A DNA stretch of 64,000 nucleotides, taken from contig NZ_CM001555.1 in assembly GCF_000275865.1 (NCBI RefSeq), forward strand, positions 951,706 to 1,015,705, read 5' to 3'. This DNA comes from Methanofollis liminatans DSM 4140 (GTDB lineage Archaea; Halobacteriota; Methanomicrobia; Methanomicrobiales; Methanofollaceae). This document shows positions 29,365-41,200 of the stretch, in pieces. The stretch's first letter is position 1. Each line of letters opens with the position of its first letter. The translations under genes were made by a program, and so were the position numbers. The notes below the pieces were generated by a model. It did not search any database. It was given only the letters and a program-made list of their open reading frames with translations, and was not told where the DNA came from.

Positions 29365-30189
29365 TTATCTCTGGAAATCTTCCAGCAGGTTCTTCTGGTC
29401 CCGCACCTGCAGGTTTGCTGCAAAGGTGCGGGCGAGCAGCGGATTTACCGCCTGTGGGGGCAGGTTGAGAGAAGCGGCAGTTTTTCTGGTGAGTTCCGTC
29501 AGGTCGGTGGGACCTTCACCGCTGCCTGCACGTACGGCTGTGTGGATCCTCTGGAGATATGCAAGCGCCCGGTCCATCTGAAGATATGCCTCCCGCCCCC
29601 TCCTCGGTTTATCCCATGCCGAGAGAACCACGCGAATGCCGGCAAGCCCCCGGAGCCGTTTTATGGACTGTACCGACGCAATGGCGTCGTCATAGACCGG
29701 GAGTTCTCCCGCCACCGGTAGTGCGTCGCCGGAGAAGAGCGCCCCCTCGCTCTGCATAAAGAGCGAGATGGATCCCGGGGAATGGCCCGGCGTATGGAGC
29801 ACGTTGAGGTTCATGTCCCGAGTTTTATCGGGCGCTATGATCTCTCCGTCGGCGAGTTCGCGATCGACCTGCACCGGTCCGCCGACCAGTGAGGCAAACC
29901 CCGGCACCGGACGCTCGCGGTTCTGAAGATCCACGTCCTCGATCCATCCCCGTTCGGCCGGGTGTGCAGCGATCGTGCAGCCGGTCGCCCTCTGGATCGC
30001 CCGTGCTGCTCCGATATGATCGGGATGCGCGTGGGTCAGGATGATCGATGCAATCTCTGAGGGGTCTCGGCCGGCGGACCTGATGGCATCGAAGATCTGC
30101 GTCTCGCATCCGGCCACCCCGGTGTCGATAAGGGTAATCGTCTCACCGTAGACGAGGTAACAGTACACGAACCGGTCGAGTGCCATTCC
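29365..30189 (-). CDS. Metallo-beta-lactamase fold hydrolase (glyoxalase II-like)
   Basis: 274 residues from ATG 30189 (MALDRFVYCYLVYGE). HxHxDH is seen in ILTHAHPDHIGAA, with further ligands in LHTPGHSPGSISLF and FSGDALP. C-terminal helical part of about 90 residues. TTTAAAAT about 20 bases upstream fits a leaderless start here; ATG 30252 would add 21 residues. Substrate unknown; the family includes thioester hydrolases. Confidence 0.75.
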   Translation of the reverse strand, partial: GMALDRFVYCYLVYGETITLIDTGVAGCETQIFDAIRSAGRDPSEIASIILTHAHPDHIGAARAIQRATGCTIAAHPAERGWIEDVDLQNRERPVPGFASLVGGPVQVDRELADGEIIAPDKTRDMNLNVLHTPGHSPGSISLFMQSEGALFSGDALPVAGELPVYDDAIASVQSIKRLRGLAGIRVVLSAWDKPRRGREAYLQMDRALAYLQRIHTAVRAGSGEGPTDLTELTRKTAASLNLPPQAVNPLLARTFAANLQVRDQKNLLEDFQR

Positions 30190-30588
30190 CGGCGCTATAA
30201 CAATTTTAAACGAAATTTTGAGTGCGTGGATGAAAGGCGCTATCCGCATTCGATCGTCTCTGCGCACATCCTCATCATCGTCCCTGAGTACTGCCGTCAC
30301 GTCCTCACCTCTGGTCAATCGTCATGCATGTCCTCTCAGCCTGATCCCGGACATCTGTTGGGGTGCCCATCGAGGATAATGGTGCTGCCCCCCCGGTGTT
30401 CACGGTTCCGATCAGATGATCGGGACCGCGCCGGTCCTGGCAGATGCACGCCTCCCTGAGAACAGTCAGGATGAAGTATTTTGGCGATAGGGAAAGGGAT
30501 TTTCTTGCCGGGGAACGATCAGGTGATGAAGAGAGATCGCCGTCTTTTGAAAAACCGGTGCCCTGCCGGGTGAGAGATGTGATAAAAG
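30190..30588. other. Noncoding chromosomal flank left of the element
   Basis: Between the MBL gene promoter and the tRNA 3' half. No convincing gene, repeat or terminator seen. Confidence 0.4.
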
Positions 30589-30639
30589 TGCGAGGAGCCG
30601 GATTCGAACCGGCGAACGCCTGCGCGAATAGGCCCTGAA
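30589..30639 (-). pseudogene. 3' half of tRNA-Leu(CAG), split by element insertion
   Basis: The minus strand reads, from anticodon loop to 3' end, loop TTCAGGG, stem CCTAT, variable arm with CGC/GCG stem, T-arm GCCGG TTCGAAT CCGGC, and acceptor strand TCCTCGC followed by A. The pairing partners (5' half) are missing here but are found at 40311-40354. After CCCTGAA (plus strand, end 30639) homology stops. This is the chromosomal left junction (attL). Confidence 0.9.
30630..30639. repeat. attL core, AGGCCCTGAA
   Basis: Ten-base direct repeat shared exactly with 40311-40320. It covers the tRNA anticodon loop and adjoining stem bases. A third copy lies inside the element's intact tRNA (40224-40233). 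Confidence 0.85.
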
Positions 30640-30693
30640 TCAAATACGTATTGTTGGCGATAGGTTTATCATTTTCAGGGGCCATTATCCCGT

Positions 30694-31878
30694 ATGCAGG
30701 AGAGGTACGACCGGACGAAGATCCCACAACTGACCCCCGCGGAGAACACCGGAATATTAACACAATATGTCCGGCACTGTGAACTTGCCCGGGCAACACC
30801 GGCGACGATCACGAACAAGGTTGCACGCATGGCCCCGTTCCTGAAGTGGGCCGGGGTCAAGGCTGATGAAGTCACGCCGACGATGGTTGAAGATTATTTT
30901 TTGGATCGGATGGATCGGTTATCCCTTCACACCATCGACGGCGACGTTATCGAGTTCCGAGTGTTCTTCAAATGGCTTTTAGGTGAAGAGAAGGCGAAAG
31001 CGCTTCTTAAAAACATCAAAAAGTCGCATAAGAAACGTGAGTTGCCGGTTGAACAACTCCTGACCCGCGAAGATGTGCAAAGCCTGATCGGTGTCTGTGA
31101 ACGGCAACGCGACCGCGCCCTTATTGCGCTCCTGTGGGATTCCGGCGCCCGGATAACCGAAGTCCTGAATATCGACGTGGGCGATCTCGCCTTCGATCGA
31201 TACGGCGCGACGGTGATCGTGGACGGCAAGACCGGACGCCGAAAGCTCCGGCTTGTTTCCAGCGTGCCGGACCTCCAGGCGTGGCTTGAGCAGCACCCGT
31301 ATGGCACCGATCCCCGGTCCCCGTTGTTTGTGACCAGCCGATCCTTCACCGAAAAGAAGCCGCGCAGACTTGCAGGCCGGACGGTTAACACGCTCTTGCT
31401 GCGGATCGGCCCCCAGGCCGGTGTATATCGCCCGTGCAACCCTCACGCTATCCGGCACGCCAGGCTTACTGACTTGACAAAGGAAGGACTCTCGGAAATG
31501 GAATTGAGGATCGTCGCGGGGTGGTCCACGTCATCGGGAATGCCCGATGTGTACGTCCACATGTCCGGTGGCGACGTCGAAAAGAAGATCCTTCGAAATG
31601 CCGGACTACTCGAAGAGGAGGAAAACGATAAAGAGGCGGCGATGGAGCCGATCAAGTGCCCGAGGTGCAAACGCCTGAATGCCCCGGGGTCACGGTTCTG
31701 TGCCGGGTGTTCGGCGGCTCTTTCGACAACGGTTGCTATGGAGGTAGAGAACGCGGCGCAGAGCATAGAGAGCACCGCTGAGTATCTGGACATCGTTAAC
31801 AGCGCTGAATATCAGGCACTTCTTGGGGCCATACAGGATAAGATGATGCGGGCGAAGGGCGGGCATCCCCGGACATAA
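30694..31878 (+). CDS. int: Tyrosine recombinase (integrase) with C-terminal zinc ribbon
   Basis: 394 residues. N-terminal SAM-like DNA-binding domain (about 15-110). The catalytic domain has R153 (DSGARITEVL), K179 (VDGKTG), H251 and R254 (NPHAIRHARL), W277 in place of the second His (AGWSTSSG), and Y287 (PDVYVH). All catalytic residues are present. A zinc ribbon follows (C322, C325, C336, C339). It lies 55 bases inside attL, so it sits next to attP in the circular form. It would cut and rejoin DNA at the tRNA anticodon loop. Confidence 0.92.
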   Translation: MQERYDRTKIPQLTPAENTGILTQYVRHCELARATPATITNKVARMAPFLKWAGVKADEVTPTMVEDYFLDRMDRLSLHTIDGDVIEFRVFFKWLLGEEKAKALLKNIKKSHKKRELPVEQLLTREDVQSLIGVCERQRDRALIALLWDSGARITEVLNIDVGDLAFDRYGATVIVDGKTGRRKLRLVSSVPDLQAWLEQHPYGTDPRSPLFVTSRSFTEKKPRRLAGRTVNTLLLRIGPQAGVYRPCNPHAIRHARLTDLTKEGLSEMELRIVAGWSTSSGMPDVYVHMSGGDVEKKILRNAGLLEEEENDKEAAMEPIKCPRCKRLNAPGSRFCAGCSAALSTTVAMEVENAAQSIESTAEYLDIVNSAEYQALLGAIQDKMMRAKGGHPRT

Positions 31879-31906
31879 CCCGCCATGATCGGCGGGGCAA
31901 ACACAA

Positions 31907-32422
31907 TCAAACCATTTTTTCAAGTTTTTCGAGATCGACCACGACATCAAACACCCACACGAAACCCGGGCGGGGACCGATCCCGCGCTTGCATTTTTGC
32001 TTCTTCCGAACCTCGGCCGGCAACGACCCGCGGAAAAAGTCGAAGTTTTTCAGGATGAAAGTTATCATTTGCGCCGCGTTCAGGGGCATCCCGAAATGCT
32101 TGCACACATCGGATGAAGTAAGCCGCATCGACGGGCAACCGTGATCCGCGACGTACAGCGCGACGGCCCGCGGTGCAAGGGACCGGATACCGCGCAACCG
32201 TGTTCCCCGCGTCGGGCGGGTTATCGCATATTCAATATCCTCACCGAGTTCTTTTTTCATCGCATCCAGATTAACAGACAAATCACTCTCAATCATATAT
32301 TCAACCCATTTGTATTCTATTGGCGCATATATTTTGCGGGTATGGCCTCTCAAAAAATATGCATAATGCGGGCGATTTATATCAATTTTGAGAGGGGCAT
32401 ATTCATGGGTAATGTTCTTCAT
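31907..32422 (-). CDS. Hypothetical element protein, possibly winged-helix
   Basis: 171 residues from ATG 32422. N-terminal part Tyr-rich (RPHYAYFLRGHTRKIYAPIEY); middle acidic helix; C-terminal half with MRLTSSDVCKHFGMPLNAAQ, which resembles a helix-turn-helix, and a beta-wing-like FVWVFDVVVDLEKL. Only minus-strand gene in the element, convergent with the integrase (28 bases apart). It could be the element's regulator. Family not recognised. Confidence 0.6.
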   Translation of the reverse strand: MKNITHEYAPLKIDINRPHYAYFLRGHTRKIYAPIEYKWVEYMIESDLSVNLDAMKKELGEDIEYAITRPTRGTRLRGIRSLAPRAVALYVADHGCPSMRLTSSDVCKHFGMPLNAAQMITFILKNFDFFRGSLPAEVRKKQKCKRGIGPRPGFVWVFDVVVDLEKLEKMV

Positions 32423-33028
32423 CAACTCGACGATAAAAACCCATTACTTTCAAGGGGTGTGGCGCTGTTTTCACCCGGGCGATCATAACCGGGTGTATAT
32501 CCCCGCGTCGTTCAAACAGGAAGGGGGAATTGACGTTATAGCCAAAACGACAACAAAACAGGGCGCCGGGGGATCTCCAGGGCCACATCTGACCGCATGA
32601 TCTGACCATAGCGGGCTTCGATGGAAAACGACAACTTCCGTTCTATCATAAGACGACAACCGAAGGCGTTTCGCATCTGCATGTGCAGATCGGAAGCAGT
32701 AGAGGCAAGAGATACTTTCACGGCTGTTGCGTCTATCATTAGACCTTTTGTTGCAGACGCAATAGCGATAATGAAGGCATTGTGGGCTTTGATTTTGAAT
32801 CTGCCCCGGGAGACGTGAAATATTTAAACATCTAACGCGCACCACTGTCTGTCGGGCGGTATAACCAGGACCCGGGGCGTTTAGATCGCCCCGAATCCTA
32901 AAAAAACGATCCCCCAGCGCGTGTAGCCCCCTCAGGCATACAAACATACTGCACTGCGTTACGGTTACGTGTGCAGCGTCGGTATAAAAACGCGTCGGTT
33001 TCGTCGGGGTGCCGCTCGGGAGGCAGAA
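32423..33028. promoter_or_regulatory. 606-base noncoding region with a palindrome copy
   Basis: No gene convinces here. It holds palindrome copy 1 (32675-32690) and start signals for the plus-strand operon. Small frames exist on both strands but lack ribosome sites or run through the palindrome. Confidence 0.45.
32675..32690. repeat. Element palindrome, copy 1
   Basis: ATCTGCA-TG-TGCAGAT, perfect 7-base arms with 2-base spacer, followed by CGGAA. One of five related sites (also 34909-34934, 38468-38481, 39291-39306 and, imperfect, about 39891-39903). Confidence 0.85.
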
Positions 33029-33325
33029 ATGAGCCGAATCGACAAATCCCCCTCAAAAATCCAGGATAACCCGGACGGAACGAACGAGCGAATTTTGGAT
33101 CTGATCGCCCGCGCGGGCGGGGCGACCAGCGGCACGATATATCGCGCCGGCGTCTGCGGCCTGTCGCAGCAGGCGATCGACAACCGCCTGGAACGCCTGA
33201 CCCGACGCGGCGCGATCTACTGCGATCGAGCGTACGGGGTGAAAATATTCCGGTTGGCGCACGAAACGGCCACGGAATCCGAATCCAGACGTACAGCGCT
33301 GGCAGGGGGCGATCAACACGACTGA
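33029..33325 (+). CDS. Winged-helix DNA-binding protein
   Basis: 98 residues from ATG 33029, with GGAGGC upstream. Residues about 18-78 look like a winged helix: NERILDLIARAGGATSGTIY, GLSQQAIDNRLERLTRRGAI, then the wing YGVKIFRLA. Probably a transcription regulator of the element, perhaps binding the palindromes. A longer frame (from 32969) includes untranslated leader and is not favoured. Confidence 0.7.
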   Translation: MSRIDKSPSKIQDNPDGTNERILDLIARAGGATSGTIYRAGVCGLSQQAIDNRLERLTRRGAIYCDRAYGVKIFRLAHETATESESRRTALAGGDQHD

Positions 33326-33500
33326 CGCCCCTGTTAAAATTGAACGTGAAATCTACGAACATCTGTCCGTTCTGCACCGGGCAGCCGTTGATATTCTGGT
33401 AGCACGTGGAAAATGGATAATTGCGGAATCGGGGGCGCATAGCGCCCCGGACGATAGGGATCGGCACACGGCGAACCGGGGTCAGGCGGTGTTGTCGTGA
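33312..33500 (+). CDS. Open frame lacking a usual start codon, between wHTH gene and next gene
   Basis: The frame beginning ATC AAC ACG ACT at 33312 encodes a protein-like sequence (VKIEREIYEHLSVLHRAAVD and ILVARGKWIIAESG). Its TGA (33498-33500) overlaps the next GTG as GTGA, just as true gene pairs here do. But there is no ATG, GTG or TTG at its head. GGGGG lies 5-6 bases before ATC. It may use a rare start, be reached by a +1 frameshift from the wHTH gene, or be decayed. Confidence 0.35.
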   Translation: MNTTDAPVKIEREIYEHLSVLHRAAVDILVARGKWIIAESGAHSAPDDRDRHTANRGQAVLS

Positions 33501-33697
33501 CAGAAACAACAACGATCCCGCAGTATTTATACGTGACGATCCCCCCCCATACGGCGGGCGGGAAAATCGTTATCGTGGCCCTGCCGGGCATCGGGCGCTA
33601 TTTTGCGCCAATAGGCGAATTTAGGCGATTAATTGCGGGCGAACGGGATGATCTGACCCTCCACCCGCTGCCGGGGGGATCGGCGTGCCGCCGGTAA
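33497..33697 (+). CDS. Small hypothetical element protein
   Basis: 66 residues from GTG 33497. N-terminal beta-like VTIPPHTAGGKIVIVALPG, then FRRLIAGERDDLTL. Overlaps the frame before (4 bases) and the next gene (13 bases). Family not recognised. Confidence 0.5.
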   Translation: MTETTTIPQYLYVTIPPHTAGGKIVIVALPGIGRYFAPIGEFRRLIAGERDDLTLHPLPGGSACRR

Positions 33698-34605
33698 ACC
33701 CCCGGGCGCCGGCCCGGACCAGCACCGGGCCGCTCCCGCTGATCGAGGGGCTGAACGTCGAGATAACGTCCACCAACCAGGGCTGGATCTCGATCGTCAC
33801 CCGGGACGGGGCGGCGATCGTGCGCGACGGCCCGACCCCCGCGGCGCCGTGGATCGACCGCCGCGCACCCGGACGGATCGCCGCAGCGGTTCACGCAGCG
33901 GTACCGGCGATCGTCCGGCGGGCGATCCGGGGCGCACTCGACCAGATTTTTGCGGCGATCCGGTCCTCGCCTGACGGTAGCGGGATCGTCTCGCCGGCGG
34001 TGGCGCGGGCGATCGGCGCCACAGTTCGGGTGCAGATCGAAACCTGCGATCCGCCCACGTACCTGGTCGATCTGGACGGCGGGCGATCGCTGCTGTTCGG
34101 ATCGCGCGATATCGCGGCCCGGCGGCCGATCGTGCTCAACGAGCGCTGGCTGGCGGTGCACCCGCGGGAACCCCTGAACGCGTCTGGCAACGATTTCGGG
34201 GCGATTATCGATTATTGGCTGTCGATCGCCGAGGAAATTGATCCGACCGGGGACGCGTCACCCTGGGAGGGCGCCGCCGAGGGTCTACAGATCGCACTCG
34301 CGGCGCTGACCGTGTACCCCACACGCGACGGGCTGGCCCGATCGGGCCTCTGGCAGGAACCAAACGGCCCGCTGTGGGTGGCCGGGCGGTTGGTCCGGGC
34401 CGCGTTACGGGACGCCGGACGGGGGGAGGACGACGCTAATTTTTCAAAATACCTGCGGGAACGCGGCCTGATCGTGCACGCGTCCACCCCGCACCGGGTG
34501 GGCGGGGCGCTGATCAGGGCATGGGGGTTCGATCCCGATATACGCCCCGAGGACGCCCGGATCGCCGAATGCGCCGCCCTGGACGACGAGGGGGCGACAC
34601 CGTGA
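33685..34605 (+). CDS. Large hypothetical element protein, maybe replication-related
   Basis: 306 residues from GTG 33685. The N-terminal two thirds is Arg/Ala-rich with beta patterns (GWISIVTRDGAAIVRDG; TYLVDLDGGRSLLFGSRD). The C-terminal stretch (about 225-290; NGPLWVAGRLVRAALRDAG, KYLRERGLIVHAS) looks like the winged helix found at the ends of phage primase-helicases. No catalytic motif recognised. It lies directly upstream of the repeat cluster and helicase-primase pair, so a role in replication initiation is possible. Confidence 0.5.
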   Translation: MPPVNPRAPARTSTGPLPLIEGLNVEITSTNQGWISIVTRDGAAIVRDGPTPAAPWIDRRAPGRIAAAVHAAVPAIVRRAIRGALDQIFAAIRSSPDGSGIVSPAVARAIGATVRVQIETCDPPTYLVDLDGGRSLLFGSRDIAARRPIVLNERWLAVHPREPLNASGNDFGAIIDYWLSIAEEIDPTGDASPWEGAAEGLQIALAALTVYPTRDGLARSGLWQEPNGPLWVAGRLVRAALRDAGRGEDDANFSKYLRERGLIVHASTPHRVGGALIRAWGFDPDIRPEDARIAECAALDDEGATP

Positions 34606-34958
34606 CGGACGACACCCGGACCGGCACTGTTACAGGTGCCCCCCTAGTACGCGCCCGCGGGACCGTCGCGCACATTTTTTCAGGAGGGGCGAAAAACAGG
34701 CGTATCACCCGTAACGCCGTAACACCGGAAAATCGGGGGAATTATATGTCCCTATTTTCCATTCGCACCTCATATTGGTGTTACAGGTTCTATCATCCCA
34801 CCCGTAACACCCGTAACAGGGTGAAATTGAGTTTCTATAACGCCCGCGACCCGTCAACGAGCACGAAAACTAAAAATCGATCTCTCCCGCGTGGGATATA
34901 TGGGATCATTCCGATCTGCACATGCAGATCGGAACCTATCAGGAGGGGATCGGCATGA
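34602..34958 (+). CDS. Doubtful frame spanning repeat region
   Basis: 118 residues from GTG 34602 (GTGA overlap) to a TGA that overlaps the helicase ATG. The product is Arg/Thr/Asn-rich and low in hydrophobic core (RGTVAHIFSGGAKNRRITRN). The frame runs through the GTAAC repeats and the longest palindrome. Either a small basic protein or a regulatory region that happens to stay open; the latter is slightly favoured. Confidence 0.3.
   Translation: MTDDTRTGTVTGAPLVRARGTVAHIFSGGAKNRRITRNAVTPENRGNYMSLFSIRTSYWCYRFYHPTRNTRNRVKLSFYNARDPSTSTKTKNRSLPRGIYGIIPICTCRSEPIRRGSA
34629..34823. repeat. GTAAC/GTTAC repeat cluster, possible origin
   Basis: Six half-sites in about 195 bases: TGTTACAGGTG (34629), CACCCGTAAC (34706), GTAACACCGG (34719), GGTGTTACAGG (34777), and ACCCGTAACACCCGTAACAG (34800, two copies). 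Both orientations occur. The segment is more AT-rich than its flanks and lies just ahead of the helicase and primase genes, a usual place for iterons or initiator sites. Confidence 0.55.
34909..34934. repeat. Element palindrome, copy 2 (longest)
   Basis: Arms TTCCGATCTGCA and TGCAGATCGGAA are perfect over 12 bases around CA, 21 bases before the helicase ATG. Strong candidate operator for the replication operon. Confidence 0.9.
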
Positions 34959-36682
34959 CTCCCGCCCCGGTGATCAGGTGGAGGGGCGGCCCGGGTGCCG
35001 GCAAAAGTTCGGCTCTGATCGATTACGTCCGGGCCGAGGCAGGGACAGGGGCGACGATCGGCGATATTGTAGCGCTCACGTTCTCCCGCTCTCAGGCTGC
35101 CGATCTCGCCCGGCGCCTCCACGCGGCGGTATTCCCTGCCGCGAACGTTCCCGCTGTCCGGGGGCTGTGCACGACGATCCACGCCTGTGCCCTGCGTCAG
35201 TGCCTGGCCGCCGGCCTGATAGAGAACCCGCGGGTGCAGGTGATCCAGCCCGGCGACCGCCGCGCGGCGCCGATCTATCAGGATTTTATGGGCCGGCACG
35301 GTTTGGCCTTCGACCCGGCGATCGGTTTCGAGGGGGACGACGACGACCAGACCCGATCCGACCTGCCGATCGGCAACCAGGTGATCGCCCTCGCCGCGTA
35401 CCTGACAGCGACCCGGCGCCCCCCGGCAGCCTGGCGGGAAGCAGCGGCCGCCCTGGGTCTGTCGGTCCCGGGGCATGCATGGCCGATCGAGGATCTCCTG
35501 TGCGCCTGGGCAACGTACAAACGCGATCGCGCGTTTTACGAACATGAGGATTACGTACGCCTGGCCCTCGATCACGATCTGCCGCCCCCGGCCCCGATCC
35601 TGTTTATCGACGAATACCAGGACGTTTCCCCAGCACAGGACGCCCTGATCCGACAGTGGATCAGCCACCCTGACACCCGCCGCGTATACGTGGCCGGGGA
35701 CGCGGATCAGTCGATATACGGTTTCCGCGGGTGCGATCCGGCCCTGTTCCTCGACCTGGCCGCCGAGGATCGGGGGGCAACCGGCCCGGAATCCCGCCCG
35801 GTATCCCACCGGTGCCCGGTCGAGATCATGGCGATCGCTGAAACGATCCTCAGCCGCCCGGCGACCGTCTCCCCCTGCGATCGCCCCGGACAGGTACACC
35901 ACGTCCGGCCGACGACCGCCGCGGGCCTCGCCGCACAGGTCGAGGAGACGATCCGGTACGCCCGGACCCTCCCGGGCAACCGGCAACCGGTGTTTATCCT
36001 CAGCCGCTACCGGCGGGCCGCCGGCAACCTCGCCCACGCCCTCGCCGCCGCGGGTATCCCGTGCACCTCGATCAAACCCTCCCGGGTGCGTTTCTGGACG
36101 GCAACCCGGATCGGCCGGGACCGGGGACACCTCGAACCGACGACGATCAGCCCGTGGACCCTGAAACGAGCGATCGCCCACGCCCTCGCCGGGTCCGACA
36201 TCGACCAGATCCCGACGACCGAGGCCGAGGCCGTGATCCTCTCGACCCTCACCGACCAGCGGCGGGCCGCCGCCCTCACCGACCTACGGATCAGGGCAAA
36301 ACGAGGGCCGATCCGTCTGGGCGACGTGTACGCGTTGGTGGGCGCCCGGGGCGATCAGATATTCGACGCCCTGAACCTGCGCCCCTGGATCGTCGCACAG
36401 ATCCGCGCCTGTCTCGCCCGGGAACGACAGCGGGGATACGAGATCACGCCCGATATGGTGAAGATCGACACAATCCACGCTTCTAAAGGACTTGAATCCT
36501 CGATCGTGCTCCTGCACACCGGATATTTGCGGGGCCGCCTCCCCGCGCTCGCCGACCCTGATCGCCTGGCCGAGGAGCGCCGCGTGTATTTTGTGGGAGC
36601 GACCCGGGCCGCCGATGCCCTCCTCCTCCTCGATTACGGCGACGGCCCGACCTGTCCGATCCTGGCAGGGGTGGTAGCGTGA
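34955..36682 (+). CDS. Superfamily 1 (UvrD/PcrA-type) DNA helicase
   Basis: 575 residues from ATG 34955, with AGGAGGGG upstream. SF1A motifs in order: Walker A GGPGAGKS (11-18), motif II FIDEYQDVSPAQ, motif III YVAGDADQSIYGFRG, motif V DTIHASKGLESS, and motif VI YFVGATRAADALLLL. It unwinds DNA with ATP, probably for element replication. ATGA overlap with the frame before; GTGA overlap with the primase after. Confidence 0.92.
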   Translation: MTPAPVIRWRGGPGAGKSSALIDYVRAEAGTGATIGDIVALTFSRSQAADLARRLHAAVFPAANVPAVRGLCTTIHACALRQCLAAGLIENPRVQVIQPGDRRAAPIYQDFMGRHGLAFDPAIGFEGDDDDQTRSDLPIGNQVIALAAYLTATRRPPAAWREAAAALGLSVPGHAWPIEDLLCAWATYKRDRAFYEHEDYVRLALDHDLPPPAPILFIDEYQDVSPAQDALIRQWISHPDTRRVYVAGDADQSIYGFRGCDPALFLDLAAEDRGATGPESRPVSHRCPVEIMAIAETILSRPATVSPCDRPGQVHHVRPTTAAGLAAQVEETIRYARTLPGNRQPVFILSRYRRAAGNLAHALAAAGIPCTSIKPSRVRFWTATRIGRDRGHLEPTTISPWTLKRAIAHALAGSDIDQIPTTEAEAVILSTLTDQRRAAALTDLRIRAKRGPIRLGDVYALVGARGDQIFDALNLRPWIVAQIRACLARERQRGYEITPDMVKIDTIHASKGLESSIVLLHTGYLRGRLPALADPDRLAEERRVYFVGATRAADALLLLDYGDGPTCPILAGVVA

Positions 36683-37881
36683 CCGAACGGATCGCCCTCC
36701 TGGACGCGGCGTGCCGGTTCTACGAGCGGCACCTGACCGACGATCACCGGGAATTTCTCCTCGCCCGGTACGGGTTCCGGCCCGATTTTGTAGAGGCCGC
36801 CCGGATCGGCTACGCCCCGGCAGACGGTACGGCCCTCCTCCTGCACCTGATGGACCGGGGATATAGCGGCGATGAGATCATCGCGTCCGGCCTGGTGCAG
36901 CGGTGGACGAAGGACGGCAACACAGGTGTTACCGATCACTTCCGGGGCCGCATCGTCTTTCCATACCTGGACGGTGCCGGGGCGCCTGCGTACTTCATCG
37001 CCCGGGCAACCGATGAGACCCCGGCGCACGGCGACGCGGTCCCGGCGAAATACGTAAAAGGGATCGTCAACCCCATCGGGCCGCGGGAACCGATCTTCGG
37101 TGCCTGGTCGGTGATCGACGGCGAACCGCTGATCGTCACCGAGGGGATCGCCGATGCCCTGGCAGCCCTCCAGGACTGCCGGCCGTGCATCTCCCCGGTG
37201 ACAACGAGCTTCAAACGCGAGAGGATCGACGAGGCCGCCGCGTACTGCCGCCGGGCCGGGGCGACGTACATAATCAACGATAACGAGGCGAGCGGGGCCG
37301 GGCTGACGGGTGCGACCCGAACCGCCCACGCTCTCCTCACGCACGGGATCGATCGGGTGTATATCGGCACCCTCCCGCGGCCCGATGGGGTTGATAAAAT
37401 CGATTTAAACGACTATCTCAGGGACGGCGGCGACCTCGCCCCGATCCTCGCCGGGGCGGTCCCGGCCGCCGAGCACCCCGCCGTGCAGGAGGAACGCCGG
37501 CAGGAGATCCTTGCAGGGGTGGCCGCCCTCCGATCCGGCATCTCCCGGCAGCGGTACGAGGCGAGCGGGAAGAAAAACCACCGTACGAATGGCATCGACG
37601 ACCTGAAACGCCGCATGCCCTCCCTCAGCGCCTACACCGGGATCGCTCCCGGGAAGCGGGGGCCGCACCCCGTGTACGGATCGACGCACGGCGATAACTT
37701 CGCTGTATCGAGAGACGGCGAGACCTGGACCTCGTTCCACGGCGGGAACGAGGCTGGAAAATCAGGGAACCTGTTCAAACTGATCGCCCTGGAGCAGGGT
37801 TTTCTCACCGACGAGGATCGGCCCCTCCGGGGGGAGGCGTTCAAACAGACGATCGAGTACTGCCGGGGGCGGTGGGGATGA
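36679..37881 (+). CDS. DnaG-like primase with permuted domain order
   Basis: 400 residues from GTG 36679. The N-terminal part (about 10-115) matches the DnaG catalytic-core N domain (YERHLTDDHREFLLARYGF, ARIGYAP, DHFRGRIVFPYLD). A TOPRIM domain follows with EGIADAL (E155) and IINDNEASGAG (D201). The C-terminal part (about 307-385; DDLKRRMPSLSAYTG, DNFAVSRDGETWTSFHGG, GNLFKLIALEQGF) resembles the DnaG zinc-binding CHC2 domain but lacks its cysteines. It stands at the end instead of the start. It presumably primes element DNA synthesis with the helicase. Confidence 0.8.
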   Translation: MTERIALLDAACRFYERHLTDDHREFLLARYGFRPDFVEAARIGYAPADGTALLLHLMDRGYSGDEIIASGLVQRWTKDGNTGVTDHFRGRIVFPYLDGAGAPAYFIARATDETPAHGDAVPAKYVKGIVNPIGPREPIFGAWSVIDGEPLIVTEGIADALAALQDCRPCISPVTTSFKRERIDEAAAYCRRAGATYIINDNEASGAGLTGATRTAHALLTHGIDRVYIGTLPRPDGVDKIDLNDYLRDGGDLAPILAGAVPAAEHPAVQEERRQEILAGVAALRSGISRQRYEASGKKNHRTNGIDDLKRRMPSLSAYTGIAPGKRGPHPVYGSTHGDNFAVSRDGETWTSFHGGNEAGKSGNLFKLIALEQGFLTDEDRPLRGEAFKQTIEYCRGRWG

Positions 37882-38438
37882 TCCCCGGTGAAAACGAGGT
37901 GTTACCAATCATGAAAATCGAAGTTTGTAGGCTTGATGACCCGGCCTTTACGGTCCGGGACATTGACGGGACCGACGCCCCGCCCCTCTTCACCATCGGC
38001 TACCAGGGCCGGACCCTCGATCAGTTCATCGAGATCCTGAAGGAGAACCGGATCGAGAGCGTGATCGACATCCGCTTCTCCACCGTGAGCAGGTTCAAAC
38101 CAGAATTTCGAGACAGCAACCTCACCCGGGAACTTCCCCGGGCGGGTATCCGGTACGTCCACCACAAAGAGTTAGGCGTACCATACGCGTGGCAGAACCC
38201 CTATAAAGCGGGAGCCATCCCGTTTGAGTGCCTGGAAAAGTTCTATCGGTGGAATGTGAAGAAGAACAGCGATTTTAAGGCGTTCATCTCCAGCGTGAAG
38301 GAGAGCAGCCCGGCCGCGCTCATGTGCTTCGAGCGGTACGCAACTCCCACGCGGGGCCAGAAGATCGCCTGCCATCGCTCAATTCTCGCGGCTATGTTGC
38401 TGGAGTCCGGGGAGTTTGAGCGGGTCATACACCTGTGA
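37878..38438 (+). CDS. DUF488 family protein
   Basis: 186 residues from ATG 37878 (overlapping the primase stop); ATG 37911 gives a shorter form. Family marks: FTIGYQGRTLDQFIEILKEN, VIDIRFSTVSRFKPEF, HHKELGVPY, and a C-terminal ALMCFERYATPTRGQKIACH with a Cys-His pair. DUF488 proteins are widespread with unknown function, often near DNA-modification or mobile genes. Confidence 0.8.
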   Translation: MIPGENEVLPIMKIEVCRLDDPAFTVRDIDGTDAPPLFTIGYQGRTLDQFIEILKENRIESVIDIRFSTVSRFKPEFRDSNLTRELPRAGIRYVHHKELGVPYAWQNPYKAGAIPFECLEKFYRWNVKKNSDFKAFISSVKESSPAALMCFERYATPTRGQKIACHRSILAAMLLESGEFERVIHL

Positions 38439-38467
38439 CGGGAGCGGGGAACACGATCCCCTTCCCG

Positions 38468-38481
38468 TCTGCACATGCAGA
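38468..38481. repeat. Element palindrome, copy 3
   Basis: TCTGCA-CA-TGCAGA followed by TCCGAACC, between the DUF488 gene and the zinc-finger gene, just before an AT-rich promoter (CCTATTATATCTC at about 38523-38536). Confidence 0.85.
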
Positions 38482-38574
38482 TCCGAACCTCTCCCATGTC
38501 CATATGGATTTCATAACGTTTAACCTATTATATCTCTGGTATGCATAATCAGTAGAAAAGCATATGAATAAGAT

Positions 38575-38916
38575 ATGATTATCAGTAATATCATGGATGA
38601 GACTTCTGATCGATTCATCTGCAAGTATTGCGGGCGGTCCTTCACTTCGATGAAGGGGTTAGTTTCGCACCTCAAAGGGTGCGAGAAGCGCCGGTTTGAA
38701 ACGCTTTTCAAGGTGGGCGGCTTCATTTTCACCGTGTTTTGGAACCCAACCCGGCGGGTGCAGCATGGCCTCAAACGCCTGGAGGCTGGCGACGATCCAA
38801 AGGCGTTCATCTCCGTCCTTCGCTTTCTCCGCGATATTGAGGTGATCGTGGACTACACGATCGATCGGGACGGGGCCGCGGCGCCCGGAACCCCTCAACC
38901 CGGGGCGGCATCATGA
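38575..38916 (+). CDS. C2H2-type zinc-finger protein
   Basis: 113 residues from ATG 38575 (or 38593). A single finger ICKYCGRSFTSMKGLVSHLK with final GC in place of the last His (C2HC). Then a hydrophobic-basic region (FKVGGFIFTVFWNPTRRVQH) and a helical part. Such small finger proteins are common regulators in archaeal viruses and plasmids. Overlaps the next gene by 4 bases. Confidence 0.75.
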   Translation: MIISNIMDETSDRFICKYCGRSFTSMKGLVSHLKGCEKRRFETLFKVGGFIFTVFWNPTRRVQHGLKRLEAGDDPKAFISVLRFLRDIEVIVDYTIDRDGAAAPGTPQPGAAS

Positions 38917-39215
38917 ACGGGATCATAACCCTCAAGGCAAAAGGTGTTTCCAGCCCGAACGGGCCGATCGATCTAACGGTCGCGGGGAACATCGACGACG
39001 CCGAACGGTTATACAACGTCCTTCAGGACACCCGGGATCAGATCCTTGCATATTCCTGTGATCGCGCCTGGTACACCGCGGTAGAACCCGACCCGGCACC
39101 GACCAAAGCCGCCCGCCGCCGTCGAAAGACCGCCGACTTCCCGATCCCCCACCGCGATCGTCATCCCCCCGTGCCGTCGATCTTCAGGCACGCGCGCGCC
39201 TCTCTCTCCCCCTGA
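38913..39215 (+). CDS. Small hypothetical element protein
   Basis: 100 residues from ATG 38913. N-terminal beta-rich (GIITLKAKGVSSPNGPIDL) then a helix; the C-terminal third is basic and Pro-rich (TKAARRRRKTADF). Possibly binds nucleic acid. Family not recognised. Confidence 0.5.
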   Translation: MNGIITLKAKGVSSPNGPIDLTVAGNIDDAERLYNVLQDTRDQILAYSCDRAWYTAVEPDPAPTKAARRRRKTADFPIPHRDRHPPVPSIFRHARASLSP

Positions 39216-39427
39216 TCCGATCCCCCAAAAAACCCTATATCCCTTTTGTTCATGCCAAAGCGGGGTATATCTTCGTATTTTGGTATTCGCATCTGCATAT
39301 GCAGATCGATGGTCTAAGCGATCGCCCCGCGGAAACCCTCATTTTTCACATAATATCATAATATTATTATCAAAAACACATATATAGTATGATCATTTAT
39401 CCTCTATTGTGAAGGAGGTGTATGCGA
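39216..39427. promoter_or_regulatory. Promoter region of the two-helix membrane protein gene
   Basis: Holds palindrome copy 4, an AT-rich run with TAATATTATTATC (39357-39371), a TATA-like ACATATATAGTATG (39378-39391), and GGAGGTG (39414-39420), a near-perfect ribosome site 7 bases before ATG 39428. The strong signals predict high expression. Confidence 0.6.
39291..39306. repeat. Element palindrome, copy 4
   Basis: ATCTGCA-TA-TGCAGAT, perfect palindrome of 16 bases followed by CGAT, about 120 bases upstream of the membrane protein gene. Confidence 0.85.
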
Positions 39428-39724
39428 ATGGCGAATGACCAGGGCGGTGTTGCATCGGCAACGGGCCTCATGGGTATCCTTGTGGGTTTCCTTGTGGTTG
39501 GTGTGATCGGCGTCTATATCGGTGATCAGATGCTCACTTCGGCGTCTCTCAACGAGTCCGACGCGCTGTACACCTCGCAGCAGGCCGTTGTTGAAACGTT
39601 CACGCTTGGCGTGACTCTCGCGAAGGTGATTATCATCGTCTCGATCGCCGCGATCATCTTTGTGATGCTTCAGAACACCGGCCTTGTGCCGTCCTTCAAG
39701 CAGGGCGGCGGCGGCGAGTACTGA
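39428..39724 (+). CDS. Two-helix membrane protein, candidate spindle-virus-type major capsid protein
   Basis: 98 residues from ATG 39428, chosen because GGAGGTG stands 7 bases ahead (ATG 39422 is too close to it). Helix 1 is about residues 13-33 (GLMGILVGFLVVGVIGVYIG), then a polar middle (SASLNESDALYTSQQ), helix 2 at about 60-84 (LAKVIIIVSIAAIIFVML), then a Gly-rich end (KQGGGGEY). Fusellovirus-like capsid proteins share this layout: small, two hydrophobic helices, a short polar link, high expression. It could also be an unrelated membrane protein or holin-like protein. Confidence 0.5.
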   Translation: MANDQGGVASATGLMGILVGFLVVGVIGVYIGDQMLTSASLNESDALYTSQQAVVETFTLGVTLAKVIIIVSIAAIIFVMLQNTGLVPSFKQGGGGEY

Positions 39725-39888
39725 TCGCATACACCTCCCCCCCCGCTCCAGTCCCCCATCTGCGCTATGCCCCCGGCGGTATTACACCTCTGCCGCCGAT
39801 CCCTCCCGGGAAGAGGGATATAGGGGCATTTTCCCATTTTTGAGGTAAAAACCGAATAATAATATTATCATCTGTCACCCCTTCAGAC

Positions 39889-39908
39889 TCGCACATGCAG
39901 ATCCGAAC
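39889..39908. repeat. Element palindrome, copy 5 (degenerate left arm)
   Basis: TCGCACATGCAGATCCGAAC keeps the centre and right arm of copy 3 (CATGCAGATCCGAAC) but the left arm is changed. Confidence 0.6.
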
Positions 39909-39983
39909 CACACCGGGCGAAGGGCGCCCGGGTGGGTGCCGTGCCCCTTCTCAAAACTCACATATCCGGGCGATAGCGATATG

Positions 39984-40104
39984 TTTCTTTGACGGTGGAT
40001 CATGGGCATGGAGGAGCGCACATATGGGCGGTGCGTGCCCCGATAGAAGCGATCTGTAGTGTTTGGAAATTGTTTCTTTTTTGACCAGGGGATCATGGGC
40101 CTGG
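39984..40104. repeat. Imperfect direct repeat near attR, possible integrase arm sites
   Basis: TTTCTTTGAC-GGTGGATCATGGGC (39984-40007) and TTTCTTTTTTGACCAGGGGATCATGGGC (40073-40100, written here as one site) share the T-run, GAC and GGATCATGGGC core about 90 bases apart. They lie 200-330 bases from the crossover core, as phage-type arm sites often do. Confidence 0.35.
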
Positions 40105-40182
40105 TGCAGAGCACCGCGCAGCGTGTGGTGATGCTGTTAGAAATGTGCGAAATGCTTTATAATGGGTTCTTTTTAGAAAGAG

Positions 40183-40267
40183 TGCGAGGGGAGCGATTCG
40201 AACGCTCGAACGTCTGCACGACCAGGCCCTGAACCTGGCTCCTTTGACCTGGCTCGGAAACCCTCGC
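40183..40267 (-). tRNA. tRNA-Leu(CAG), complete, carried by the element
   Basis: 85-base class II tRNA. Acceptor GCGAGGG/CCCTCGC with A at 73, D-stem TCC/GGA, anticodon stem CCAGG/CCTGG with loop TTCAGGG (anticodon CAG), variable arm CGT-GCAG-ACG, T-arm GAGCG TTCGAAT CGCTC. All stems pair. It lies 43 bases inside attR, so it belongs to the element. Compared with the split host tRNA, it has the same anticodon but paired changes in every stem, so it is a diverged relative, not a copy. No CCA is encoded. Confidence 0.93.
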
Positions 40268-40310
40268 AAATTTGATTTTATGGCGCAATCTATGGCGAAC
40301 ATCCATTTCA

Positions 40311-40320
40311 AGGCCCTGAA
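40311..40320. repeat. attR core, AGGCCCTGAA
   Basis: Right copy of the ten-base crossover repeat; its left flank (CATTTCA) is element sequence and its right flank (CCTATCGCC) continues the host tRNA. Confidence 0.85.
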
Positions 40321-40354
40321 CCTATCGCCTTTGACCTGGCTCGGCAATCCTCGC
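40311..40354 (-). pseudogene. 5' half of tRNA-Leu(CAG), split by element insertion
   Basis: The minus strand gives acceptor GCGAGGA, TT, D-stem GCC/GGC with GAGCCAGGTCAAA loop, G26, stem ATAGG and loop TTCAGGG, then breaks off. It pairs perfectly with the 3' half at 30589-30639 (GCGAGGA/TCCTCGC, ATAGG/CCTAT). Confidence 0.9.
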
Positions 40355-40645: not shown

Positions 40646-41200
40646 ATGGATGATTCAAGGTACGAGTCACTTAAGATCGAAAATATCGTCGCATCGGGTG
40701 TTATTGCCGACTCCATCGACCTTGGTGAGGTTTCCAAAAAGATCCCCAACTGTGAACTGAATACCAAGCGCTTCCCCGGCGCCGTCTACCGGATCGAAAA
40801 GCCCAAGATCGCCTCGCTCATCTTCTCTTCAGGAAAGGTCGTCCTTACCGGGATCAGGAAGAAGGAGGATCTCTACGAGGGCCTCAATATCATCGTCCAG
40901 TCCTTAAAGGAGGCCGGCGTCGATACTTTCGACGAACCGAGGGTCGGCGTCACCAATATCGTCTGCTCGTACGACATCGGCCGCTACATCAACCTGAACA
41001 AGGTGGTCATCACCCTGAATCTGGAGAACATCGAGTACGAGCCCGAGCAGTTCCCGGGCCTCGTCTACCGGATCAAAGACCCGAAGATCGTCGCCCTCCT
41101 CTTCTCGTCCGGGAAGATCATCCTCACCGGCGGGAAAAACCTCGATGACATCAAGCGCGGGCTTGACTTCCTCGAGCAGAAACTCGAAAGCATCATGTGA
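40646..41200 (+). CDS. tbp: TATA-box-binding protein
   Basis: 184 residues made of two repeats of about 90 residues. In each, the landmarks recur: KIENIVASGV / GVTNIVCSYD, FPGAVYRI / FPGLVYRI, and LIFSSGKVVLTG / LLFSSGKIILTG. It bends promoter TATA boxes and recruits TFB and RNA polymerase. Full length. TATA-like ATTATAG 27-35 bases upstream gives a very short leader. Confidence 0.97.
   Translation: MDDSRYESLKIENIVASGVIADSIDLGEVSKKIPNCELNTKRFPGAVYRIEKPKIASLIFSSGKVVLTGIRKKEDLYEGLNIIVQSLKEAGVDTFDEPRVGVTNIVCSYDIGRYINLNKVVITLNLENIEYEPEQFPGLVYRIKDPKIVALLFSSGKIILTGGKNLDDIKRGLDFLEQKLESIM

Follow-up and report, generated by a model that had tools for sequence, protein, structure and literature searches.

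We analysed a 64,000-nucleotide stretch of the genome of Methanofollis liminatans DSM 4140 (hereafter the window), which carries a 9.7-kb integrative element that splits the host tRNA-Leu(CAG) gene. All tRNA parts are encoded by the minus strand. At the left end of the element (attL side, positions 30589-30639) is the orphan 3' half of the host gene, and at the right end (attR side, 40311-40354) is its orphan 5' half, preceded by the host promoter. Both halves include a 10-bp attachment core, AGGCCCTGAA (TTCAGGGCCT in the tRNA sense), which comprises the anticodon loop plus three bases and is located at 30630-30639 on the left and at 40311-40320 on the right. Overlapped at this core, the halves join to an 85-nt tRNA that ARAGORN calls as Leu(CAG) and in which all 24 model stem pairs are formed. 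A second, complete tRNA-Leu(CAG), which we term the cargo tRNA (40182-40267), lies inside the right end, separated from attR by a 43-nt spacer (40268-40310); ARAGORN detects it, and a tRNA-Leu covariance model scores it at 103 bits. Compared with the joined host tRNA it has 16 differences in 85 positions, all of them within 8 stem pairs that are changed on both sides, making it a homologue rather than a duplicate of the host gene. The break in the anticodon loop, the perfectly paired joined tRNA and the separate, diverged tRNA with the same anticodon had all been proposed in a sequence-only reading of this DNA, and they are borne out here.

Next to the 3' half lies an uninterrupted gene for a tyrosine integrase with a C-terminal zinc ribbon (int, 30694-31878, plus strand; Pfam PF00589, E 4e-17), starting 54 bp from the core. 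Residues R153, K179, H251, R254, W277 and Y287, which we take to be the catalytic residues expected of a tyrosine recombinase, are kept across its clade in the integrase alignment.

Genome-wide tRNA counts given here rest on searches. In the 2.475-Mb genome these found five complete Leu tRNA genes, one per anticodon, so that the sole complete CAG gene is the one inside the element. CUG makes up 36% of leucine codons in long open reading frames (ORFs) outside the element. The Rfam tRNA family missed both the cargo tRNA and the GAG gene (G000:C1:1605964-1606048), which ARAGORN and our own model detected; tRNAs with a long variable arm may thus be undercounted in searches with that family.

The sequence-only reading had suggested comparison with an empty site, and a genome of the same genus without the element (G003) provides one. 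Its tRNA-Leu(CAG) gene is intact and matches the joined halves at every position (85/85, E 8e-39); each leucine anticodon is represented by one tRNA gene, with no further CAG tRNA. The gene for the host TATA-binding protein (TBP), our marker for the site outside the element (40646-41200, plus strand), adjoins the tRNA in G003 as well, and the two genomes are 92% identical over 2,095 bp in an alignment that begins exactly at base 40311. TBP also adjoins tRNA-Leu(CAG) in other genomes of the genus where it was found by tblastn. By tRNA matches and anticodon reads, a second CAG tRNA was not seen in any element-free genome of the genus.

A Methanofollis metagenome-assembled genome (G007) carries a sister element of 6.7 kb with the order 3' half, integrase, complete tRNA, 5' half. 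Its integrase is 85% identical to that in the window, its spacer 81%, and its cargo tRNA is the same at every position (86/86), whereas the split host tRNA differs between the two genomes (85% identity in the 3' half and 95% in the 5' half). When both elements are circularised, they have one DNA block in common, 1,208 bp running from the cargo tRNA through attP and int. Judging from the 100% match of the joined 85-mer to the intact G003 gene and from recurrence in 22 further insertions (see below), the layout is not a product of chance.

Downstream of int are an ORF of 172 amino acids of unknown function without a family match (31907-32425, minus strand) and, on the plus strand, a small putative transcriptional regulator (32969-33325; PHROG 2440, E 2.5e-5), an ORF of 306 amino acids of unknown function without a match (33685-34605), a UvrD-like helicase (34922-36682; PF00580, E 2e-17; PHROG 1967, E 1.5e-40), a DnaG-like TOPRIM primase (36679-37881; PF08275, E 1e-9; Toprim_3, E 1e-5; PHROG primases) and a DUF488 protein (37872-38438; PF04343, E 3e-16). 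These are followed by a C2H2 zinc-finger protein (38575-38916; PF13912, E 7e-5, under the curated cut-off), an ORF of 100 amino acids of unknown function without a match (38913-39215) and a small hydrophobic protein without a family match, probably a membrane protein by its two hydrophobic stretches (39422-39724). The helicase also resembles GajB helicases; its PADLOC GajB matches were not accepted as a Gabija system, and GajA was not found among the element proteins. Pfam and PHROG-type family searches gave no capsid, portal or terminase match among the element proteins, many of whose ORFs have no family assignment, and a search of viral contigs returned one weak match for the integrase and none for the primase. 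Directly outside attL lies an MBL-fold hydrolase gene (29365-30318, minus strand). On that side of the tRNA, G003 has merely 137 bp before the next matching flank, and close homologues of the hydrolase, up to 72% identical, occur in other families of the order and are absent from the genus; the gene is therefore a gain separate from the element.

Across eight other elements, int is the only protein of the window element with a strong match; otherwise there is one weak match, to the helicase (E 3e-5). Because the other genes of the elements are mostly unrelated, we regard the tRNA, attP and int as a portable integration cassette.

Recurrence within the integrase clade

Integrase relatives were identified by alignment in Methanofollis, Methanoculleus, Methanoregulaceae, Methanolinea and Methanoperedens, and are found in 25 of 232 genomes of the order and in 27 of 393 sampled in the phylum (many from one other family). 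At every locus with readable upstream DNA a tRNA-Leu 3' half adjoins int, first in 17 of 17 and then in 24 of 24 cases, two sets that overlap and are partly the same records. In a tree of 20 clade members, integrases that use CAG genes form one well-supported group and those that use TAG genes another, which points to few target switches.

Both ends could be placed on one contig for 23 elements, including that of the window, spread across the order, Methanoperedens and another family. Contig-end cases, together with G518 and G504, are outside this set. The 23 elements range from 4.3 to 44.9 kb, and each has a related integrase beside the orphan 3' half, a complete tRNA-Leu 28-112 nt downstream of the orphan 5' half and a core of 9-16 bp; none of the 23 is without a cargo tRNA. 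The split genes are CAG (8), TAG (7), TAA (6) and CAA (2). In 21 of the 23, ARAGORN reads the joined halves as a tRNA-Leu with the anticodon of the cargo, and the remaining two were matched via the 5' half. In all eight element-bearing genomes examined (G000, G007, G044, G047, G061, G062, G066 and G070), searches returned no gene for the cargo's anticodon other than the cargo tRNA. The swap of a host tRNA is the standard mode of the entire integrase clade. The sequence-only reading was right that the gene is broken and a whole substitute supplied, as the empty site in G003 confirms; its view of the element as a lone exception does not hold. Sister elements have a plasmid- or island-like look, with MCM, Cdc6, restriction-modification or NrS-1-like genes, and several carry defence-like genes.

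Individual elements of the clade show further variation. In a Methanoculleus genome (G062; L160, L164, L203), two Leu tRNAs, TAG and TAA, are each split and replaced by clade elements, the TAG element being divided over two contigs. A TAA-type element in G530 (L307-L308) has three extra Leu tRNAs inside, one CAA and two CAG, with no 5' halves; upstream of one inner CAG tRNA, the DNA is similar to that at the right end of the G546 element, as expected if cassettes had nested into a composite. In G061, the 38-kb element has a degenerate third tRNA-Leu-like sequence immediately interior to its cargo tRNA (L200:978-1062, 61 bits), perhaps the relic of an earlier cargo. The smallest element (G183, L314) measures about 4.3 kb from integrase to cargo tRNA. 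Truncated clade integrases near an intact tRNA-Leu(TAA), in G039 (L082; also with a stray 3' half), G059 (L079) and G054 (L081), are apparent element relics. For the more distant integrases of G037 and G022, taken as canonical controls, the other ends were not found.

In G414 (L320-L321, C11), a cargo tRNA-Leu(TAG) with the same sequence as that of G353 is kept together with the 3' half and the integrase; the host 5' half and attR are gone, replaced by unrelated coding sequence. This is likely a case of permanent tRNA replacement.

Cargo tRNAs diverge from host tRNAs in the anticodon stem more than native tRNAs do from one another. At least one compensated pair change in this stem was found in 21 of 21 testable elements and at least two in 20 of 21, compared with 374 and 189, respectively, of 466 pairs of native tRNAs with the same anticodon; element rows and native pairs share kinship, and these numbers are indicative, not a formal test. 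The changed pairs are nearly always the second and third of six, and the 7-nt anticodon loop is unchanged in 19 of the 21. Eleven elements keep the T stem unchanged and 12 the acceptor stem; in seven both are unchanged, and the anticodon stem is changed in all seven. Change rates between cargo and host are 0.12 for the T stem and 0.35 for the anticodon stem, opposite to native pairs (0.33 and 0.24). The anticodon stem and loop are the usual core of tRNA targets of tyrosine recombinases (PMC8371274). The attachment core recurs in the cargo tRNA, about 90 bp away from attP, and without recoding of the cargo the element would be prone to recombine with itself. We infer that the recoding of the anticodon stem was selected for immunity to the element's own integrase.

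Proposed mechanism and competing explanations

It is very probable, from comparative sequence evidence, that the 9.7-kb element uses a tRNA-replacing integration cassette of an archaeal tyrosine integrase. The integrase would act on a short core in attP and on the anticodon loop of the only tRNA-Leu(CAG) gene of the host, recombining the two. Because merely about 10 bp are shared, neither junction would rebuild a functional tRNA, and the cargo tRNA-Leu(CAG) carried beside attP would take over for the broken gene. In the predicted circle, attP lies between the cargo tRNA and int, both of which point away from it. After integration, the host tRNA promoter and the orphaned 5' half would lie upstream of the cargo tRNA in the same orientation, with 43 nt between the 5' half and the cargo. 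Read-through from this promoter, followed by trimming by RNase P, is the likely expression route, and would be simplest for spacers in the 28-50 nt range. A cargo behind a long spacer may have its own promoter: the G047 spacer contains a TATA-like TATATAAAAA and the spacer of the G062 TAA element resembles the host promoter region, which makes an own promoter likely in these two. The recoded anticodon stem, with loop and anticodon kept, would hide the cargo from the element's own integrase.

The proposal that the host is addicted to the element finds only partial support. Recombination across the 10-bp core, if exact, would recreate the intact host gene in the same event that removes the cargo, so loss by excision should cost the host nothing; in the window the halves are still perfect. 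Loss would be lethal only if it were inexact or came after the halves had decayed. What should carry a cost instead is integration that lacks a cargo tRNA, deletion of that tRNA from the element, or excision once the orphan halves are no longer intact. Under standard decoding rules, the UAG tRNA is the sole reader of CUA and the UAA tRNA of UUA; since no other tRNA should read these codons, dependence should be strict for Leu(TAG) and Leu(TAA) targets. Wobble by the UAG or UAA tRNA could help to read the codons of the CAG and CAA tRNAs.

Two loci, the G062 TAA element with its one-base loss and G414 with its lost 5' half, suggest that swaps which start out reversible can turn permanent. On balance we lean, by a modest margin, toward a complete scheme in which a portable cassette (recoded tRNA-Leu, attP and integrase) swaps a single-copy host tRNA for an integrase-proof copy, the host promoter drives the replacement, and decay of the orphan halves makes the takeover permanent, as suggested in G414.

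Several points weigh against replacement of the host tRNA as set out here. Two of the 23 pairs of halves fail to join cleanly. The 3' half of the G062 TAA element is one base short. In G174 (L304-L305), the attL core is GAG, the 5' half and cargo are CAG and the upstream DNA is like that found next to other CAG genes, the pattern expected had a GAG-type attP recombined with a CAG gene; this could be an instance of target switching. CUG could in principle be decoded by wobble by tRNA-Leu(UAG), so loss of the CAG tRNA alone may not kill. Many of the element-bearing records are metagenome-assembled genomes, and the kinship within the anticodon-stem comparison limits its weight.

Among the other explanations, the one that fares best, though we hold it improbable, is that the cargo tRNA is kept for codon supply or for evading tRNA-cutting defences with the break of the host gene as a side effect. 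Phage tRNAs are credited with such roles in other systems, and the defence-like genes of several sister elements would fit; left unexplained are the match between the cargo anticodon and the split gene and the fixed place of the cargo beside attP. Such a role and the replacement role could coexist. Yet less credible is that a duplicated or laterally acquired host tRNA came first, rendering the original dispensable, and that an element which does not carry a tRNA landed later. The position of the cargo just inside the right end would allow this, and the sequence-only reading had named a second tRNA already next to the site in element-free relatives as a finding that would overturn the swap model. 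We rejected this explanation, as the tRNA matches and anticodon reads showed none in element-free genomes of the genus; moreover, the same cargo tRNA sits in the G007 element, and the cargo takes the same position across four anticodons and 23 insertions, always between the two cores.

The two last explanations have almost no probability. A canonical tRNA-targeting element, whose attP fragment rebuilds the host tRNA, is the usual archaeal rule (PMC8371274, PMC6972569) and would make the complete tRNA at one end the rebuilt gene; it is contradicted by the empty site in G003. The complete tRNA is separate from both halves, which between them form a whole tRNA identical to that of G003, differs from the host gene by 8 compensated pairs, and has the same sequence in two hosts with different native tRNAs. 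A genuine split tRNA, with halves transcribed apart and trans-spliced and the complete tRNA an unrelated extra, might be entertained given that archaea have split and intron-containing tRNAs and that the break is near the canonical intron position, but was rejected because complementarity between the flanks of the two halves does not exceed that of shuffled sequence (143 of 500 shuffles were as good), the 10-bp core is on both halves, an integrase stands beside one of them and relatives have the gene intact. Replacement of the host tRNA therefore passes on both points that had been named as able to overturn it.

Relation to known integration systems

In the archaeal integrase literature, the target tRNA is described as reconstituted or not disrupted (PMC6972569, PMC8371274). 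Integrative plasmids of the pT26-2 family and other type II (pNOB8-type) elements resemble the window element in that int stays intact after integration, often beside the attachment site, and they target tRNAs with a long variable arm (Ser/Leu) in Methanococcales (PMC6972569, PMC8371274). Their attP holds the tRNA 3' end and the gene is reported as undisrupted, whereas here it is broken and replaced. Elements with SSV-type (suicidal) integrases differ in having attP inside int, which is split on integration; int in the window is uninterrupted. Disruption of a tRNA-Thr gene in Caldiarchaeum (PMC3293823) likewise involves an archaeal recombinase element and leaves an orphan tRNA 5' fragment, but in that case attP contributes an extra intron to a rebuilt tRNA and no separate replacement tRNA is involved. 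No report of archaeal tRNA-replacing integration was found in the open-access literature, which is not proof of absence.

A single integrase clade that has tRNA replacement as its standard mode and has switched among at least four leucine isoacceptors offers a natural experiment in target choice, in the replacement of tRNA genes in evolution and in keeping an integrase off the element's own copy of its target. It also indicates how organisms can become reliant on tRNAs that originated in mobile elements.

At the level of sequence features, the archaeal elements match, and appear to work like, tRNA-dependent lysogeny, their nearest known counterpart, described for the actinobacteriophages Fionnbharth, LeBron, Gaia and others (Guerrero-Bustamante and Hatfull 2024, PMC10865867) in a paper that mentions the phage Lj965 and does not mention archaea. 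Common to both are a tyrosine integrase, an attB inside a host tRNA gene, a host tRNA that is not rebuilt, a cognate tRNA on the element and a short core common to attP and attB (8-17 bp in actinobacteriophages, 9-16 bp in the archaeal clade and 10 bp in the window element). The disrupted host tRNA is the only copy, a feature also seen in the archaeal element genomes that were checked. As cited in PMC10865867, the Lactobacillus johnsonii prophage Lj965 similarly carries a cognate tRNA and does not rebuild that of its host, as a single bacterial prophage case. The two also differ. The hosts are archaea rather than bacteria, and no virion genes were recognised in the window element. Unlike in actinobacteriophages, the cut falls within the anticodon loop, the cargo always adjoins attP and points the same way as the host gene, a single integrase clade is tied to tRNA-Leu, and the anticodon stem of the cargo is recoded; the Fionnbharth tRNA, for its part, overlaps a protein gene and has its own promoter (PMC10865867). 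The principle of breaking a single-copy tRNA gene and supplying a substitute, described in 2024 for actinobacteriophages, thus extends to a second domain of life and to plasmid-like elements.

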